From contig NZ_JANZXB010000010.1 in the NCBI RefSeq assembly GCF_025371035.1, forward strand, positions 62,001 through 126,000: 64,000 nucleotides of DNA. The letters are read 5' to 3'. Every line of letters starts with the position of its first letter. The first letter of the stretch is position 1. The stretch is from Sphingomonas sp. LC-1. GTDB taxonomy: Bacteria; Pseudomonadota; Alphaproteobacteria; Sphingomonadales; Sphingomonadaceae. The translations under genes were made by a program, and so were the position numbers. The notes beneath the pieces are model-generated. The model searched no databases, was not told the DNA's origin, and worked only from the letters and a program-made list of their open reading frames with translations. This document shows, piece after piece, positions 23,193 through 35,272 of this stretch.

Positions 23193-24821
23193 TCAGGTAC
23201 GCGCACCCGGCCGGTCGAGCACCGCGCGTATCCGCTCGTTCAATTCCGCCCGGCGATAGGGTTTGCGGATCAATTCATACGATCGCGCGCCCTCATCGAT
23301 CGCTTCGTCGGCGTAGCCCGTGGTCAGCAGGACGCTCAGCCTCGGATAATCGCGCCGAACCGCCTGCGCTAGAGCGACGCCGTTCATGCCGCCGGGCATC
23401 AATATGTCGGTGAACAACAGCGAAAAGTCGCCGTCCTTCGCCAGATGATCTAATGCCTCGCGCGCGCTGCGGGTCAGGACGACATCATAGCCGAGCTGCT
23501 CCAGCATCGCCTTGCCCAGATCACCGACATCCTCCTGATCCTCGACCATCAGGACGCGTTCGGCGCCGCCGCTGCGCGCCGGTCCGACCGGCAAAGCCCG
23601 GCGTTCGGTCACCCCGGCGGCGCGAGGGAAATAAAGCGATACCGCGCTCCCCTGACCTTCCCCGATCGGCTCGGCCGTCGCCAGGCCACCCGACTGGCGC
23701 ATGAAGCCATAGACCATGGCGAGTCCCAGCCCCGCTCCCTTCCCCATCTCCTTCGTGGTGAAGAAGGGGTCGAAGATCTTGTCGACGATCGCCGGATCGA
23801 TTCCCGGACCATCGTCGGCGATGCGCACCTGCACATATTCGCCGGGATCGAGATTGACGGGACCATCGGTTTCGTCGCCGGTGCGGATGACGTTGCGGGT
23901 GGAAATATCGATCCGCCCCTGTCCGCCGCCACGCTGGATCGCCTCGCGCGCGTTGGTCAGGATGTTGAGCAACGCCATCTCCGCCTGCACCGGGTCGATC
24001 CGGCAGTTCCAGAGATTCTCTTCCAGCCGATGGTTTACGGTGACGCCGTCACCCGCCGTCCGCTTCAGGATCGGGCGGAAATCCTCGATCAACTGGTTGA
24101 AGTTGAGCAGTCGGTCGCGCAACTCCTGTTTACGGGCGAAGGCAAGCAATTGCTGGGTCAGCGTCGCGCCACGCGCGGCCGCCGCCGCAATTGCCTCGAC
24201 CGCGCGACGCCCGCTCCGGTCGCCCTGATCGACCCGCGCCTCCAATATGTCTGAATAGCCGATGATGACTTGCAGCAGATTGTTGAAATCATGCGCGATG
24301 CCGCCGGTCAGCTTGCCGACCGCCTCCATCTTCTGTGCTTCGTGCAGCGCATCTTCCGCCTCACGGCGGCGCGAAATGTCGAGCTGGCTGCTGAAGAAAT
24401 ACACGAGCTGCCCCGCGTCGTCATAGACGGGCGACACGAACAACGCGTTCCAGAAGGTCGACCCGTTCTTGCGATAATTGAGCAGTTCGACCGCGATCTC
24501 GTCCCGCCGCTCGATCGCGGCGCGGACTTGTGCCACCACGTCACGGTCGGTCTCTGGTCCTTGCAGAAACCGGCAGTTGGTGCCGAGGATTTCATCCTCG
24601 GAATAGCCGGTCATGAAGCTGAAGGCTTCGTTGCAGAAGACGATCGGATTGTCGGGCTGACGCGGATCGGTGACGATCATCGGCATCCGCGTGGTCTTCA
24701 CCGCCGCGAAGAAGATGTCCGACTGTCCCGAATGCGGCTGGCGCGAATCGGAAATTGGCGGGGACGACACGTAAGAGCGCGTCGACTTGTCGGCATCGGG
24801 CGTCTCTGGCGTGGCGGTCAT
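23193..24821 (-). CDS. LOV-domain hybrid histidine kinase (blue-light sensor) with C-terminal receiver
   Basis: The 542-residue protein has an N-terminal PAS/LOV domain (about 35-150) with GTNCRFLQGPETDR, in which Cys83 is the flavin-adduct cysteine, and NYRKNGSTFWNALFVSPV. A HisKA helix pair follows, with GGIAHDFNNLLQVIIGYSD (His about 177). Next are the HATPase domain (NILTNAREAI, IADDGPGIDP, GAGLGLAMVYGF) and a receiver from about residue 418 (RVLMVEDQED, LLFTDILMPGG). There is no membrane segment, so it is cytosolic. I start at ATG 24821; GTG 24827 is also in frame. A GGAAC-N17-GTT motif lies only 8 bases upstream of the ATG. Confidence 0.92.
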   Translation of the reverse strand: MTATPETPDADKSTRSYVSSPPISDSRQPHSGQSDIFFAAVKTTRMPMIVTDPRQPDNPIVFCNEAFSFMTGYSEDEILGTNCRFLQGPETDRDVVAQVRAAIERRDEIAVELLNYRKNGSTFWNALFVSPVYDDAGQLVYFFSSQLDISRRREAEDALHEAQKMEAVGKLTGGIAHDFNNLLQVIIGYSDILEARVDQGDRSGRRAVEAIAAAAARGATLTQQLLAFARKQELRDRLLNFNQLIEDFRPILKRTAGDGVTVNHRLEENLWNCRIDPVQAEMALLNILTNAREAIQRGGGQGRIDISTRNVIRTGDETDGPVNLDPGEYVQVRIADDGPGIDPAIVDKIFDPFFTTKEMGKGAGLGLAMVYGFMRQSGGLATAEPIGEGQGSAVSLYFPRAAGVTERRALPVGPARSGGAERVLMVEDQEDVGDLGKAMLEQLGYDVVLTRSAREALDHLAKDGDFSLLFTDILMPGGMNGVALAQAVRRDYPRLSVLLTTGYADEAIDEGARSYELIRKPYRRAELNERIRAVLDRPGART

Positions 24822-24829
24822 GACCACCG

Positions 24830-28843: not shown

Positions 28844-30742
28844 ATGCGCATAGGGGCGATGACGGCGGCATGGCTGCTGGCGGGAGCGCTGGCGAGCACA
28901 GCGCTACCCCCGGTGATGGCGCGGGAACCGGCCCCCAAGGCGTCCGCCAAGACGGCGGTCGAATATGACATCGCCTTTCCCCGCCCGGAACATCATGAGG
29001 CGCAGATCAGCGTCACCTATCGCGGGTTGGGCCGCACCCCCATCCGCTTCCAGATGGCGCGCTCCTCGCCGGGTCGCTACGCGCTGCACGAGTTCGCCAA
29101 GAACGTCTATTCGGTGTCCGCCATCGACGGGGCCGGACGTCCGCTGACCATCTCGCGCACCGATCCCTATGGCTGGACGGTGCCCGCCCATGACGGCACC
29201 GTCACCGTCCGCTACACGCTGTTCGGCGATCGGGGCGACGGCACCTATGCGCAGATCGACCCGACCCATGCACATCTGAACATCCCCGCCACCTTCATGT
29301 GGGCCGCCGGGCAGGACGACCGGCCGATCCGCGTCCGTTTCCACCCCGCCGCCGGATGGAAGATCGCGACCCAGCTAGCGCCCACCGACGATCCCGCCGT
29401 CTTCACCGCGCGCGACCTGCAATATTTCATGGACAGCCCCGTCGAGATGTCCGCCTGGGACATAAGGAGCTGGACGGTGGGTGATGGCGCCCAGCGCTAC
29501 ACTATCCGCCTGACGGCCCATCATGACGGCAGCCCCGCCGATCTCGACCGGTTCGCCGCCATGGCGCGAAAGGTCGTGGCGCAGCAGATCGCGGTCTTCG
29601 GCGAGGCACCGCCCTATGACTATGGCACGTATACCTTCCTCGCCGACTATATGCCGCAGATCAGCGGCGACGGGATGGAGCATCGCAACTCGACGGTGAT
29701 CAGCATGCCGCAGTCGCTGGCGGCCGCGAAGTTCGCGCAGATCCAGACGCTGAGCCACGAATTCTTCCATGCCTGGAATGTCGAACGCATCCGTCCTGCG
29801 GAGCTGGAGCCGTTCGACTTTACCCGCGCCAATGCGACGCCCTCGCTCTGGCTGGCCGAGGGCTTCACCCAATATTACGGGCCCCTGGCGGTCGTCCGCG
29901 CCGAGCAGATGCCGCTGGCCGACTATATCGCGCAACTGTCGGCGACGCTGAACGCACTGCTGATCACCCCGGCGCGTCGTTACGGCGGACCGCAGGAAAT
30001 GAGCCTGCGCGCGCCCTTCGTCGATGCCGCCCAGTCGATCGATCCGACCAATCCCAACATCTTCAAATCCTATTATCCCTATGGCGCGGTCCTTGCCCTG
30101 GCGCTCGATCTGCAACTACGGCAGGCCTTTCCGAAGCTGACGCTCGACGATTATATGCGCCAGCTCTGGCGCAACCATGGCAAGACCGAGCGCAGCTATC
30201 GCCCCGACGATCTGCGCATCGCCCTAGCGGAGCTTACCGGGGATCAGGGCTTTGCCGACCGCTTCTTCACCCAATATGTGATCGGCAGCGCTCTACCCGA
30301 TTTCGCGCCGCTGCTGGCGCAGGCCGGGCTGACATTGCGCCCCGTTCACCCCGATGCCGCCTGGGCGGGCGGAACCCCGGCCAAGGGGGATGACGGCATG
30401 ACGATCGTCGCCCCGACCGCGCCGGGCACGCCGCTCTATGACGCCGGGCTGGACAAGGGCGATGTGATCGTCAGCATCGACGGTCGCCCGGTGGCGGACG
30501 CCGCCGCCTGGACCGCCTTGCTGGCCGCGCACAAGCCGGGCGACCGCCTGTCCATCGTCTATCGCCAGCGGGGCGGCGAGCGGCGGGCGACGATGATCCT
30601 CGTCGCCGATCCGAACCAGGAAATCCTGCTTGACGAGAGCCTGGGCCAAAGCCCGACGCCCCGACAGATGCGGTTTCGCCAAGCCTGGCTGGGGCCACGC
30701 CCCTTGGTCGGACGCATCGGTCCGGTGACGTCCGCGCCCTGA
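28844..30742 (+). CDS. M61 family metallopeptidase with C-terminal PDZ domain
   Basis: The 632-residue secreted protein begins with a signal peptide cut near VMA-REPAP. An N-terminal beta domain is followed by the gluzincin catalytic domain with TLSHEFFHAWNVERI (His305, Glu306, His309). The third ligand should lie in WLAEGFTQYYG. A PDZ domain sits at about residues 530-600 (APGTPLYDAGLDKGDVIVSI). M61 enzymes are glycyl aminopeptidases, here probably periplasmic. The ATG at 28844 follows AAGGAAGGG. The gene stands alone between tRNA-Cys and the LOV operon. Confidence 0.93.
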   Translation: MRIGAMTAAWLLAGALASTALPPVMAREPAPKASAKTAVEYDIAFPRPEHHEAQISVTYRGLGRTPIRFQMARSSPGRYALHEFAKNVYSVSAIDGAGRPLTISRTDPYGWTVPAHDGTVTVRYTLFGDRGDGTYAQIDPTHAHLNIPATFMWAAGQDDRPIRVRFHPAAGWKIATQLAPTDDPAVFTARDLQYFMDSPVEMSAWDIRSWTVGDGAQRYTIRLTAHHDGSPADLDRFAAMARKVVAQQIAVFGEAPPYDYGTYTFLADYMPQISGDGMEHRNSTVISMPQSLAAAKFAQIQTLSHEFFHAWNVERIRPAELEPFDFTRANATPSLWLAEGFTQYYGPLAVVRAEQMPLADYIAQLSATLNALLITPARRYGGPQEMSLRAPFVDAAQSIDPTNPNIFKSYYPYGAVLALALDLQLRQAFPKLTLDDYMRQLWRNHGKTERSYRPDDLRIALAELTGDQGFADRFFTQYVIGSALPDFAPLLAQAGLTLRPVHPDAAWAGGTPAKGDDGMTIVAPTAPGTPLYDAGLDKGDVIVSIDGRPVADAAAWTALLAAHKPGDRLSIVYRQRGGERRATMILVADPNQEILLDESLGQSPTPRQMRFRQAWLGPRPLVGRIGPVTSAP

Positions 30743-30770
30743 CCAGGGCGCCCACACCGGCGCGGTTTCG

Positions 30771-30796
30771 GGAACGACCGCGGCCCGGCCCGGGTT
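30771..30796 (+). promoter_or_regulatory. Candidate EcfG-type (general stress) promoter of the LOV / CheB-CheR-HWE operon
   Basis: GGAAC (30771-30775), 18 bases, then GTT (30794-30796, within GGGTTT) lies about 90 bases upstream of the LOV gene. It resembles the EcfG promoter pattern. The spacer is one base longer than in the first LOV gene's motif if counted to GTT. A general-stress role is inferred. Confidence 0.4.
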
Positions 30797-30886
30797 TACC
30801 CAAGTGAATTTTTTCGGGGGCTATCGTCCGTCTGGGCCCTTGCGGAGGGATAGACGCCATGCGAATGCGCGTCAGGGAGCCAGTTC

Positions 30887-31447
30887 GTGCAAGAAATTGA
30901 TATTCCGGCCCATCTGGCCAGCTATTTGGACCAGTCGCCGATCGCCCTGGCTCTGGCCGATGCGCTCGACGACAATCCGCTGATCTTCATCAATCACGGT
31001 TTCCGGGAACTGACCGGCTATACCAGCGAGGATGTGATCGGCCAAAATTGCCGCATGCTTCAACGCAACGCCGACAATGTCGAAGCGCGGGAGCGGATCC
31101 GCGAATTCCTGGCCAATGATCGGCAACTGAACGTCCGCACCATGCTGGTCAATTTCCGCAAGGACGGCTCGCCCTTCATCAACCTGCTATACATGTCCAA
31201 GCTGCGACAACTGGGCGGCAAGATGCCCTATATCTTCGCCTCGCAATTCGATGTCAGCCGATCGCATCCCGATCGTCTGGCCGCCTATGACGCCGAACTG
31301 GGCAAGACGCTGGGTCGCCTGAGCCCGATCCTCGCCGAAAGCGGTATCGTGCTGGAGGGATCGCTGACCGCGATCGCCAACACCGCCGCCACCATCGCCC
31401 AGGCCAAGCTGACCCTGTCGGACCTCGATCGAGCAGCCTTTCCGTGA
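30887..31447 (+). CDS. Short LOV (blue-light) photoreceptor protein
   Basis: The 186-residue protein is essentially one LOV domain with a helical C-terminal extension. It shows FRELTGYTSEDVIGQNCRML with Cys55 as the adduct-forming cysteine, NFRKDGSPFINLLYMSKL, and a Gln in FASQFDVSRS that usually senses the flavin state. The usual FLQG is changed to MLQR. Residues 130-186 lack any effector domain. The start is GTG at 30887 with GGGAG seven bases upstream. The TGA stop overlaps the ATG of the large kinase gene, so the two are translationally coupled and probably act together. Confidence 0.9.
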   Translation: MQEIDIPAHLASYLDQSPIALALADALDDNPLIFINHGFRELTGYTSEDVIGQNCRMLQRNADNVEARERIREFLANDRQLNVRTMLVNFRKDGSPFINLLYMSKLRQLGGKMPYIFASQFDVSRSHPDRLAAYDAELGKTLGRLSPILAESGIVLEGSLTAIANTAATIAQAKLTLSDLDRAAFP

Positions 31448-34400
31448 TGAGCGACACGCCCCGCAGCGGGGACACATTGTCGGCCGAACGGGGCGGCGCG
31501 ACCGTGCCGGTGGTGGGCATCGGCGCTTCCGCCGGCGGACTTGAGGCGCTGCGCGAGATGCTGACGCCCGCCCATGCCCCGACCGGCATGGCGTTCGTGG
31601 TGGTCCAGCATCTGGATCCCAATCACGAAAGCATGTTGGCGCAACTGCTCGACCGGCACACCAATTTGGCGGTGCGCCAGTGCGAGGGATCGGAACGGAT
31701 CGAGGCCGACTATGTCTATATCATCCCGCCCGGACGGGGACTGGCTATTCGCGGCGGCGTGCTGGAACTGACCGATTTCGTCCAGCCGCGCGGGCTGCGC
31801 CGTCCGATCGACGACTTCTTCCTGTCGCTGGCGAGCGATCAACAGGCCAATGCCGCCTGCGTCATTCTGTCCGGGACGGGAGCCGACGGGACGACGGGCC
31901 TGCGCGCGATCAAGGAGAATGGCGGCGTCGGCGTCGTCCAGAAACCCGAAAGCGCCCGTTATGACGGCATGCCGCTATCGGCGGTGGGCACCGGCCTGGT
32001 CGATTTCGTCAAACCGGCGGGCGAGATCGTCGAATGTCTGCGGGCCTTCTTCGCGCGGCGCTCGGGCGATCCCAAGGAGCATGAGGCGGAGGTCGTCGCC
32101 GACCATGTCGACGATCTGTGCCGGGTATTGCGCAACGCCATCGGCCATGATTTTTCGGGCTATAAGCGCACGACGCTGGTCCGCCGGGTGGAACGGCGGA
32201 TGCATGTCCTGGGCATCGGAACGGGCTCGGCGTATCTGGCGCGCGTCAAGAGCGATGCGGACGAGTGCGAGGCGCTGTTCCGCGATCTGCTGATCAACGT
32301 CACGCGGTTCTTCCGCGATACGGAATTGTTCGAGACACTCCGGACCAAGGCGATCCTGCCGCTGCTCCGTGCACGCGATCCGGACGAGGACATTCGCGTC
32401 TGGATCCCCGGCTGCTCCAGTGGCGAGGAAGCCTATAGCATCGCCATGATGTTCGCCGAGGCCGCGCGCGAGGCGGGGCAGCCATTGGCGGTCCAGATAT
32501 TCGCCACCGACATTGACGAACAGATGCTCCAGATCGCGCGCGAGGGCAGCTACCCGGCCGCGGCGCTGGCGGACATTCCGGCGCCTCTGCGCGAGCGCTA
32601 CACCCTGCCCCATGCCGAGCGGTTCAGCATCGCCGGGTCGATCCGCGACATGATCCGCTTTTCGAACCACAGCCTGGTAAAGGACCCGCCCTTTTCGCGG
32701 ATTGACCTGGTATCGTGCCGCAACCTGCTGATCTATTTCGACGATCGCCTGCAGCAATCGGTGCTGCCGCTGCTCCATTACGCGCTGCGTCCGGGCGGTT
32801 ACCTGTTCCTGGGGCCTTCGGAGAGCGTTGGGCGGTTCGATCATCTCTTCCCGGCGATCGACAGCCATGCCCGGCTGTTCGAACGATCCGCCGCCTCCCC
32901 CTCCTACCCCATCGACCTGCCCGGCGGCATGAGCCGAAGCCCACGGCGGCGCGGCGAACGGGGTGAGCGCGAGGGAGGCAGCGTCACCAGCGACGAAGGC
33001 GTCGCGCTTCGCCGCATCGTGGATCGTTATGCACCGCCGAGCATGGTGGTCGATCAGGATGGCGGCATCCTGGCCGCGTTCGGCAAGCTCAGCCGCTATT
33101 TCACCTTCCCCGTCACCCGGGCGGGCGGATCGAGCGCGACCACGCTGGCGCGGCCGGGTCTGCGCGAGGTGATGGGCCCGATGCTGCGCCAAGCCCGCGA
33201 CGCCCGCAAGCGCATCGCCGCGCGCGACGTGTCGGTCACGACCGAATATGGCATCCAGAAGATCGAGGTGATCTGCGATCCGCTGACCGATGGATCGCTG
33301 CTCTTCCTGTTCCGCGATACCGAGCCGTTCAGCCCGGTCGAGGTCAGCGACCTGGCCGATCTGGAGCCCGGCAACGATCATATCGAGGCGCTGGAAGACG
33401 AACTGCGCCTGACCCGCCACCGGCTGCGCTCGACCGTCGAGGAGTTGGAAACGGCGAATGAGGAGCTGAAAAGCTCCAACGAAGAAATGATGTCGATGAA
33501 CGAGGAGCTTCAATCGACCAATGAGGAACTGTCGACCGTCAATGACGAGTTGAAGACCAAGGTCGATCAGCTGACCGTCGCGAATTCCGACCTGCGCAAT
33601 TTCTTCGAATCGACCGATCTGGCGGTGGTGGTGCTCGACCGGCATTTGCGGGTGCGCAGCTATACCGAGGCCGCCCGCTCGATCTTCCCGCTCCAGCCGG
33701 GGGATCGGGGCCGGCTGCTGGCCGATGTGTCGACGCGGTTGTCGGATACCGGCTATCTCGACGGGGCGGCGGCGGTGGCGGCGGGCGGCGCTCCGTCGCA
33801 GCGGCGGGTGACGACGCGCGGGGGCGAGCGGACCCTGTCGTTGCGCATCCTGCCCTATCGCACGCAGGGAGATGGCGTCGATGGCGCGACGCTGGTGCTG
33901 ACGGACATTACCGACGCGCTCAGCATGGAGCGCGAACTGGCGGCGGAGCGCGAACGGCTTGATCTGGCCGTGAAGGCGGGCGGTATCGGCGTCTGGGAAT
34001 ATCGGGACGGGACCGGCGAGATCTTCCTCGACGGCACCGGGCGCAGCCTGTTTGGCTTTGGCGAAAACGAGTCCGCCGAGCGCGTCGATCATGTACTCGA
34101 ACGCATCGTGGCGGAGGATCGCCCGGCGGTCCAGCTTGCGCTGGCCGAGGCGATGGCGAACCGCGGCGATTTCGAAATGACCTTCCGGCTGGATGCGGCG
34201 GGCAAGGATCGGTGGATCAAGGGCTTTGGCCGGGTCGTTACCGCTAGCGCGCCGCACCGCATGGTCGGCGTCTCGATCGATGTGACCGCCGAATATGTAT
34301 TCGCCGAGACGCGCGAACTGATGCTGCGCGAGATGAACCATCGGGTGAAGAACCTCTTCGCCATCATCTCGGGCATCGTTTCCGCCGCCGCGCGCTCGCA

Positions 34401-34893
34401 CGGCGATGTGACCGAGATGGCCGAGGATGTGCGCGAGCGGATTGCGACGCTGGGCCGCGCCCATTCGCTGGCGTCTCCGGCCGGGGAGCAGCAGGCCATC
34501 GACCTGGGTTCGCTGGTGGAGGCGACGATAGCCCCCTATCAGGGTCAGTCGAAGATCATGATCGACGGCCCCCGCCTGCTGATCGACCGACGCTGCCTCT
34601 CGCCATTGGCGCTGATCCTGCACGAATGGGCGACCAACTCGGTCAAATACGGGGCCCTGGCGCATCGCGAGGGCGAACTGGCGATCGGCTGGACGCTGGC
34701 GGACGGCAAGTTGACGCTGACCTGGACCGAGACGGGCGGCAAAGGCGCGTTCGATATCGGCTCCAAGGGCTTCGGCACGCTGCTCGTCCAGACATCCTCG
34801 CGGCAACTCGGTGCGCAATTGGAGCGTAATAGCTCCGATGGTCGTTTCCTGCTGACCCTCATCCTGCCGGAGACGATACTCGCACATGACTAA
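31447..34893 (+). CDS. CheB-CheR-PAS-HWE histidine kinase fusion protein
   Basis: This large cytosolic protein of 1148 residues has, in order, four parts. A CheB methylesterase (about 15-190; GIGASAGG Ser, VQHLDPNH His, SGTGADGTTG Asp) is followed by a CheR methyltransferase (about 215-480; VWIPGCSSGEEAYSIA for SAM, DLVSCRNLLIYFD). Next come a coiled coil of repeated ETANEELKSSNEEM type leading into PAS domains (about 640-950). Last is an HWE kinase with MNHRVKNLFAIISG (His about 965) and LHEWATNSVKYGAL. All catalytic residues of the CheB, CheR and kinase parts appear present. No chemotaxis genes are adjacent. It sits between a LOV protein and a response regulator. Confidence 0.93.
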   Translation: MSDTPRSGDTLSAERGGATVPVVGIGASAGGLEALREMLTPAHAPTGMAFVVVQHLDPNHESMLAQLLDRHTNLAVRQCEGSERIEADYVYIIPPGRGLAIRGGVLELTDFVQPRGLRRPIDDFFLSLASDQQANAACVILSGTGADGTTGLRAIKENGGVGVVQKPESARYDGMPLSAVGTGLVDFVKPAGEIVECLRAFFARRSGDPKEHEAEVVADHVDDLCRVLRNAIGHDFSGYKRTTLVRRVERRMHVLGIGTGSAYLARVKSDADECEALFRDLLINVTRFFRDTELFETLRTKAILPLLRARDPDEDIRVWIPGCSSGEEAYSIAMMFAEAAREAGQPLAVQIFATDIDEQMLQIAREGSYPAAALADIPAPLRERYTLPHAERFSIAGSIRDMIRFSNHSLVKDPPFSRIDLVSCRNLLIYFDDRLQQSVLPLLHYALRPGGYLFLGPSESVGRFDHLFPAIDSHARLFERSAASPSYPIDLPGGMSRSPRRRGERGEREGGSVTSDEGVALRRIVDRYAPPSMVVDQDGGILAAFGKLSRYFTFPVTRAGGSSATTLARPGLREVMGPMLRQARDARKRIAARDVSVTTEYGIQKIEVICDPLTDGSLLFLFRDTEPFSPVEVSDLADLEPGNDHIEALEDELRLTRHRLRSTVEELETANEELKSSNEEMMSMNEELQSTNEELSTVNDELKTKVDQLTVANSDLRNFFESTDLAVVVLDRHLRVRSYTEAARSIFPLQPGDRGRLLADVSTRLSDTGYLDGAAAVAAGGAPSQRRVTTRGGERTLSLRILPYRTQGDGVDGATLVLTDITDALSMERELAAERERLDLAVKAGGIGVWEYRDGTGEIFLDGTGRSLFGFGENESAERVDHVLERIVAEDRPAVQLALAEAMANRGDFEMTFRLDAAGKDRWIKGFGRVVTASAPHRMVGVSIDVTAEYVFAETRELMLREMNHRVKNLFAIISGIVSAAARSHGDVTEMAEDVRERIATLGRAHSLASPAGEQQAIDLGSLVEATIAPYQGQSKIMIDGPRLLIDRRCLSPLALILHEWATNSVKYGALAHREGELAIGWTLADGKLTLTWTETGGKGAFDIGSKGFGTLLVQTSSRQLGAQLERNSSDGRFLLTLILPETILAHD

Positions 34894-35272
34894 GACGGTA
34901 TTGCTGGTCGAAGACGAATTCTTTGTCGCGCTGGATCTTCAGTCGATCATCGAGGATGGCGGCTATGAGGTCGATGGACCTTATGTCAGCGTCGAGGATG
35001 TGCTGGCGCATCTGGACGGAGATCGTCCGGAACTGGCCTGCGCCATTCTCGACGTGCGGCTGCGCGATGGAGAAGTGTTTCCCGCGGCCGAGCGATTGAG
35101 CCAGGCGGGCGTGCCGTTGATCTTCCATTCGGGTCATGCTGACGAACAGACGCTACAATCGCGCTATCCGGGTGCGGCGGTGTGCGGGAAGCCCTGTTCC
35201 CCCTCCCTGCTCCGCCGCACCCTGTTAATGGCGGTGTCCGGCCCCAGCGAAAGCGATCGCGAAGCCGGTTGA
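34886..35272 (+). CDS. Single-domain response regulator
   Basis: This 128-residue receiver-only protein begins MTKTVLLVEDEFFVALDLQS, with the phosphoacceptor at Asp56 in CAILDVRLRDG and a conserved Lys in VCGKPCSP. No output domain follows, so it signals by protein-protein contact or acts as a phosphate sink. It overlaps the end of the kinase gene by 8 bases and is its likely partner. The HSGHA segment stands where related single-domain regulators of the stress pathway have an FATGY-like motif, so it is not a clear member of that group. Confidence 0.92.
   Translation: MTKTVLLVEDEFFVALDLQSIIEDGGYEVDGPYVSVEDVLAHLDGDRPELACAILDVRLRDGEVFPAAERLSQAGVPLIFHSGHADEQTLQSRYPGAAVCGKPCSPSLLRRTLLMAVSGPSESDREAG

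Follow-up and report, generated by a model that had tools for sequence, protein, structure and literature searches.

Introduction

The LOV histidine kinases LovK, Brucella LOV-HK and EL346 carry the LOV domain and the kinase in one polypeptide. Short LOV proteins are believed to pass their signal to another protein, according to the portions of two reports on which we draw (PMC4335406, PMC6798134), and these same portions name no partner for RsLOV of Rhodobacter sphaeroides, a short LOV protein of solved structure (PDB 4hia, 4hj4, 7obz). Methylation outside chemoreceptors has been described for the kinase RsbK of Bacillus cereus, whose signalling helix is methylated by RsbM, as far as the portion of that study considered here extends (PMC4574943).

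Here we analyse a stretch of 64,000 nucleotides from Sphingomonas sp. LC-1 (contig NZ_JANZXB010000010.1, positions 62,001 to 126,000; hereafter the window) in which a stand-alone LOV protein, a fusion of CheB, CheR and an HWE histidine kinase, and a single receiver are encoded in a row. The locus is a conserved unit of unusual composition with the parts of a light two-component system, and gene neighbourhood leads us to propose a partner for RsLOV. In open-access literature, the titles and the beginnings of abstracts among the matches listed do not describe such a system, which is not proof of its being unreported.

Results

Layout of the locus

The three open reading frames overlap in sequence, as a sequence-only reading of this DNA had described: the stop codon of the LOV gene and the ATG of the kinase share a TGATG at 31445-31449, and the kinase, with its stop codon at 34891-34893, overlaps the receiver start at 34886 by 8 nt. 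The features of the locus, all on the plus strand, are these:

30771..30796, plus strand: candidate EcfG-type promoter, GGAAC-N18-GTT, ending 90 nt before the LOV start; motif present in the 8 nearest loci
30887..31447, plus strand: predicted short LOV photoreceptor of the RsLOV type, 186 aa, GTG start; Pfam PAS_9 at 60.1 bits, cysteine motif GQNCRMLQ
31337..31420, plus strand: C-terminal tail of the LOV protein, aa 151-178, candidate partner or dimer interface, from conservation in 32 loci
31447..34893, plus strand: CheB-CheR-coil-PAS-PAS-HWE histidine kinase, 1148 aa, from Pfam (CheB, CheR_N, CheR, two PAS, HWE_HK); active-site residues kept
31513..32034, plus strand: CheB methylesterase domain, aa 23-196, without a receiver of its own; PF01339 at 176.3 bits
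32113..32865, plus strand: CheR_N and CheR methyltransferase domain, aa 223-473; PF03705 at 48.4 and PF01739 at 176.2 bits
33436..33552, plus strand: coil, aa 664-702, with E-E-x-x-[AST] heptads, proposed CheR/CheB substrate from its conservation and the adjoining CheR and CheB
33592..34272, plus strand: two PAS domains, aa 716-822 (PF13596, 60.9 bits) and 859-942 (PF08447, 33.1 bits)
34312..34869, plus strand: HWE kinase core, aa 956-1141; PF07536 at 59.3 bits against a cut-off of 22.8
34886..35272, plus strand: single-domain receiver, 128 aa; PF00072 (Response_reg) at 26.2 bits, below the gathering cut-off of 30.2, with the assignment resting also on the nearest solved chains

The neighbouring genes are ordinary: upstream lies one for an M61 peptidase, and downstream, on the opposite strand, one for an outer-membrane efflux protein. 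A sigma-70 promoter scan found none, terminator-like sites numbered two, the same as in shuffled sequence, and Rfam returned no match over 30600-31000. PHROGs matched the LOV protein once, weakly and without a known function, and did not match the receiver. At 23193-24827 on the minus strand, ~6 kb from the short LOV, lies the gene for another LOV protein, which is a LOV-HisKA-HATPase-receiver hybrid, and five close relatives (G025, G064, G107, G110, G120) likewise have two LOV matches ~6-7 kb apart on one contig.

Conservation in Sphingomonas

A full-length orthologue of the LOV protein was found in 32 of 151 congeneric genomes (at least 194 bits; next match 87 bits), and the same 32 genomes carry an orthologue of the fusion (at least 1271 bits; next match 497 bits; at most four kinase candidates per genome were scored); at those scores both are absent from the other 119. 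The LOV and kinase genes are adjacent on one strand in all 32 loci and the receiver follows in 31; the remaining locus is truncated by a contig end within the fusion, before the receiver could be reached. The pairing of LOV and kinase is more than chance. Searching named genomes with six short peptide patterns yielded 28 loci, of which 22 are in Sphingomonas at 60-93% identity, one in Rhodobacter (45%), one in Salipiger (39%), where all three genes are present, and four partial matches in other genera. The gene trio, whose absence elsewhere the sequence-only reading had named as grounds for abandoning its proposal, is therefore kept across genomes, and the accompanying suggestion that the LOV protein acts on the kinase in trans is well supported by this conserved co-occurrence and adjacency, and is most likely correct.

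A short LOV protein related to RsLOV

The LOV protein carries the residues of a LOV photoreceptor: C55, N89, N99 and Q120 are invariant in all 16 aligned LOV proteins, and we take them to be the cysteine of a GxNCRFLQ-type motif and the flavin-binding asparagines and glutamine, from which flavin binding and a photocycle are predicted. As LOV and kinase are separate open reading frames, assignment as a fused LOV histidine kinase was rejected. Among solved structures, chains of RsLOV lead the sequence matches, over residues 12-171, and RsLOV chains also take the first 13 places when the AF2 model (mean pLDDT 84) is compared by structure, albeit at TM 0.63-0.70 and rmsd 4.4-6.8, a loose match overall. 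The protein thus belongs, by sequence and by modelled fold, with RsLOV as its nearest relative, and is a short LOV of that type without a fused effector. Its tail is predicted to form helices at 160-164 and 166-182 at low confidence (pLDDT 53-75), such that the arrangement of the C-terminal helices relative to those of RsLOV is modelled only tentatively; across the 32 loci the tail has a mean conservation of 0.81, compared with 0.76 for the LOV core.

The neighbourhood of RsLOV itself proved informative. In genome G922, one encoded protein agrees with the PDB chain of RsLOV at 175 of 175 residues, and divergently beside it lies a frame of 1189 codons with CheB, CheR, two PAS domains and HWE_HK, followed by a receiver that again falls just below the Pfam cut-off. 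Of five genomes from the RsLOV genus, four have a CheB-CheR gene divergently beside the LOV gene; the other, G924, lacks it. Because a CheB-CheR-HWE kinase and a receiver stand divergently beside RsLOV itself, RsLOV gains a candidate partner. We regard this link as the most valuable result of the analysis, in that gene neighbourhood names a specific candidate for a photoreceptor whose structure has been solved.

Active-site residues of the kinase fusion

The sequence-only reading had noted that the fusion keeps the catalytic residues of CheB, CheR and the kinase, and the alignment bears this out. Among the fusions (50 aligned, 49 counted; L108, cut by a contig end, was left out), S28, H55 and D147 of CheB, R290, Y430 and G326 of CheR, and H965 of the kinase are identical in 49 of 49, and N1064 and E1095 of the kinase are kept in 46. 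We presume catalytic roles for S28, H55 and D147 in CheB and for R290, Y430 and the SAM motif in CheR; with these residues the two domains are classed as a methylesterase and a methyltransferase. The kinase core has the signatures of an HWE histidine kinase, namely NHRVKN (HRxxN), HEWATNSVKYGAL (the N-box, HExxxN) and WTE (WxE). One fusion (L084, in G137) has an internal TAG in its assembly, reflecting either error or decay.

The receiver, the upstream motif and the general stress response

The nearest solved chains of the receiver are 2msw, SdrG (5ieb) and 2lpm, with PhyR further down. The phospho-acceptor D of an LDV motif and the sequence FHSGH are present in 31 of 31 genus receivers. Assignment as a FAT GUY receiver was rejected, given PLIFHSGH in place of PFxFATG[G/Y].

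Upstream, GGAAC-N18-GTT ends at -90 to -93 in all eight nearest loci, the window locus included, although the N18 spacers of these loci share only 43% identity on average; random 200-nt windows of the same loci contain the motif in 0.13 of eight on average. The strict motif is found in none of the 24 other genus loci, and a relaxed form in two, which is the level of chance. Genome-wide, GGAAC-N15-18-GTT has 204 matches compared with 317 for the reversed pattern; as there is no enrichment, these counts are not evidence by themselves, and the upstream regions were compared across loci instead. In S. melonis, going by the portion of the report used here, EcfG sites read GGAAC-N17-20-GTT and are enriched at most 100 bp from the start (PMC6599016). 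An upstream motif of this form occurs here and at all eight nearest loci, making it a candidate EcfG site, and since the strict form is in none of the 24 others, EcfG control of operon expression is likely in the clade of the eight nearest loci only. The region at 30840-30883, just upstream of the LOV start, is also near-identical in these eight loci (CTTGCGGAGGG...ATGCGAATGCGCGTCA.GGAGCCAG) and could function as a leader, as a start region or in regulation.

These observations bear on a reading in which the unit feeds light into the general stress response, with PhyR or an SdrG-like relay phosphorylated by the kinase and EcfG controlling the operon. The HRxxN of the HWE kinase, a receiver nearest to SdrG-type and PhyR receivers, and the motif kept in the nearest clade are all consistent with it, and in S. 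melonis the Paks, which are of the HWE/HisKA_2 type, signal to SdrG, PhyT and PhyR, according to the part of that study cited here (PMC5898713). The sequence-only reading had likewise seen in the motif a hint of a stress-response link; this stands for the eight nearest loci and fails in the remainder of the genus, however, and it concerns expression, not output. Given that limit, and PLIFHSGH where PFxFATG[G/Y] would be expected, we consider a stress input possible but on balance doubtful.

The coil between CheR and the first PAS domain

Between CheR and the first PAS domain, the fusion has a coil built of E-E-x-x-[AST]-x-x heptads. Across 49 fusions, invariant columns make up 82% of it, compared with 29% of CheB, 21% of CheR and 4% of HWE, and it also contains the longest unbroken stretch of invariant residues in the fusion, 20 in all. 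In chemoreceptors, such heptads are methylation sites. Two tandem heptads, with E or Q pairs, occur in all five own-genome chemoreceptors that were compared (out of 11), and three in a row in one of the five; among window open frames of at least 60 codons, only the kinase coil has tandem heptads. At the level of the class, a coil query matched 35 of 385 genomes, and in the 30 loci examined CheR adjoins the coil in 29 and CheB in the last. Together, these patterns point to the kinase's own coil as the likeliest substrate of CheB and CheR. The methylation target, which the sequence-only reading had left unknown, may accordingly be narrowed to this segment.

The coil was also found in each of the 29 CheB-CheR fusions examined that have no LOV close by; it is therefore not specific to light, and may only dimerise the kinase. 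An alternative is that CheB and CheR are enzymatically silent in this kinase and that the coil serves dimerisation alone, as coils can be conserved for packing; the activity of both domains is predicted from residues. The active-site residues are the same in all 49 fusions, however, and the invariance of the coil lies far above that of the enzymatic domains and exceeds what packing would be expected to need, such that we view this alternative as unlikely.

Chemoreceptors

With one own-genome chemoreceptor as query, no match was found in the window, in agreement with the initial observation that no chemoreceptor is nearby. More broadly, MCP matches are present in 41 of 45 pair-bearing genomes, including 11 matches in the genome analysed here, and none were found in the other four (G648, G706, G622, G831; completeness 99-100%). 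In those four genomes CheR, if active, must have another substrate, which weakens chemoreceptors as its sole target. A link from light to taxis, in which the CheB-CheR part acts on chemoreceptors, would fit the intact CheB and CheR residues, the many genomes with MCP matches, and the finding that RsLOV affects chemotaxis genes, as given in the part of the report cited here (PMC4335406); with no match in four pair-bearing genomes, or in the window with that query, we judge it improbable.

Distribution beyond the genus and phylogeny

Across 199 Sphingomonadaceae genomes there are, besides that of the genome itself, 10 full-length LOV proteins, all outside the genus (E ≤1.1e-44), all 10 beside a CheB-CheR kinase; two of the matches (G706, G694) have one in-frame TGA each and were counted as present. 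Among 198 Rhodobacteraceae genomes, 12 short LOV proteins were found (open frames <310 aa), nine of them beside a CheB-CheR kinase and three without one nearby (G741, G783, G401). The gene arrangement varies: LOV is divergent from the kinase in six of the nine Rhodobacteraceae cases; LOV, kinase and receiver are in a row at L249 and L259-L261; and the receiver is convergent behind the kinase at seven loci (L252-L258). At L164, L250 and L251, LOV and kinase are separated by a gene for a Crp-type regulator and a search for a receiver found none, as though these loci had exchanged one output for another. The LOV-kinase link has outlasted these rearrangements, which speaks for a partnership. In one further locus (L233, in G815), a LOV match lies in an open frame of 1341 codons divergently beside a CheB-CheR kinase.

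The CheB-CheR segments of 58 loci were then placed in an unrooted tree: eight came from the 32 loci of the genus, 13 from other loci with the pair, two from L164 and L165, six from divergent-LOV loci and 29 from LOV-less loci. In this tree 29 LOV-linked kinases and one LOV-less kinase form a single group (support 99/99), and the other 28 LOV-less kinases fall outside it; three LOV-less rows are very long branches. The sole member of the LOV-linked group that has no LOV in the flanking sequence (L283, in G327) is encoded in an open frame that extends ~400 codons ahead of CheB. At class level, CheB-CheR fusions occur in 32 of 385 genomes, with at most two candidates per genome scored, and no LOV match lies within ~1.5 kb in any of the 29 loci examined. 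That the LOV protein is merely co-inherited with the kinase and acts elsewhere is very improbable: some short LOV proteins do stand without a kinase, but co-occurrence in the genus is strict and the link is kept through several gene arrangements.

Discussion

The best explanation of our results, to which we assign a probability of about 0.72, is that the locus encodes one blue-light two-component unit. In this unit the short, RsLOV-type LOV protein would sense blue light and, as it has no output of its own, would act in trans on the kinase, probably by binding through its conserved C-terminal helices to the coil or the PAS region. The kinase would autophosphorylate on H965 and pass the phosphate to the neighbouring receiver, and from there to a presumed final output. 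The built-in CheR and CheB would most likely methylate and demethylate the glutamate-rich coil of the kinase itself, thereby setting its gain in a form of adaptation.

A broader proposal follows the same lines, and we offer it tentatively, at somewhat less than even odds. The kinase may be a self-adapting light sensor, in which CheR and CheB of one polypeptide methylate and demethylate their own coil in the manner of chemoreceptor helices and a separate RsLOV-type protein provides the light signal; RsLOV would then be half of such a unit, and self-methylation would extend to CheB-CheR kinases at large. If the coil is indeed the substrate of CheR and CheB, a function would be assigned to the CheB-CheR kinases, a large family, and sensory adaptation through methylation would operate in single kinases as well as in chemoreceptor arrays, with potential use in optogenetics.

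Several described systems share parts of this composition. LovK, Brucella LOV-HK and EL346 have in common with the window unit a LOV input and HWE/HisKA_2 kinase chemistry; here, however, LOV is a protein apart from the kinase, and CheB and CheR are joined to the latter. SdrG and related FAT GUY receivers are among the nearest solved relatives of the receiver, which differs from them in having PLIFHSGH at the position of their PFxFATG[G/Y]. CheB-CheR-PAS kinase fusions at large have the same CheB-CheR-coil order as the window kinase, but those examined at class level show no LOV match nearby. In RsbK and RsbM, as described in the part of that work drawn on here (PMC4574943), a kinase with a methylated signalling helix is accompanied by a kinase-binding receiver; RsbM is a separate protein, with neither a CheB fusion nor a LOV there, whereas the window kinase has both enzymes built in and its coil is likened to methylated helices through its heptad resemblance to own-genome chemoreceptors only. 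Nearest to the window LOV protein is RsLOV, which is also a short LOV protein and also stands beside a CheB-CheR-PAS-HWE kinase and a receiver. The two LOV proteins are 37% identical over 119 aligned residues, and their loci differ in orientation, the RsLOV gene being divergent from its kinase and the window LOV lying in a row with its own.
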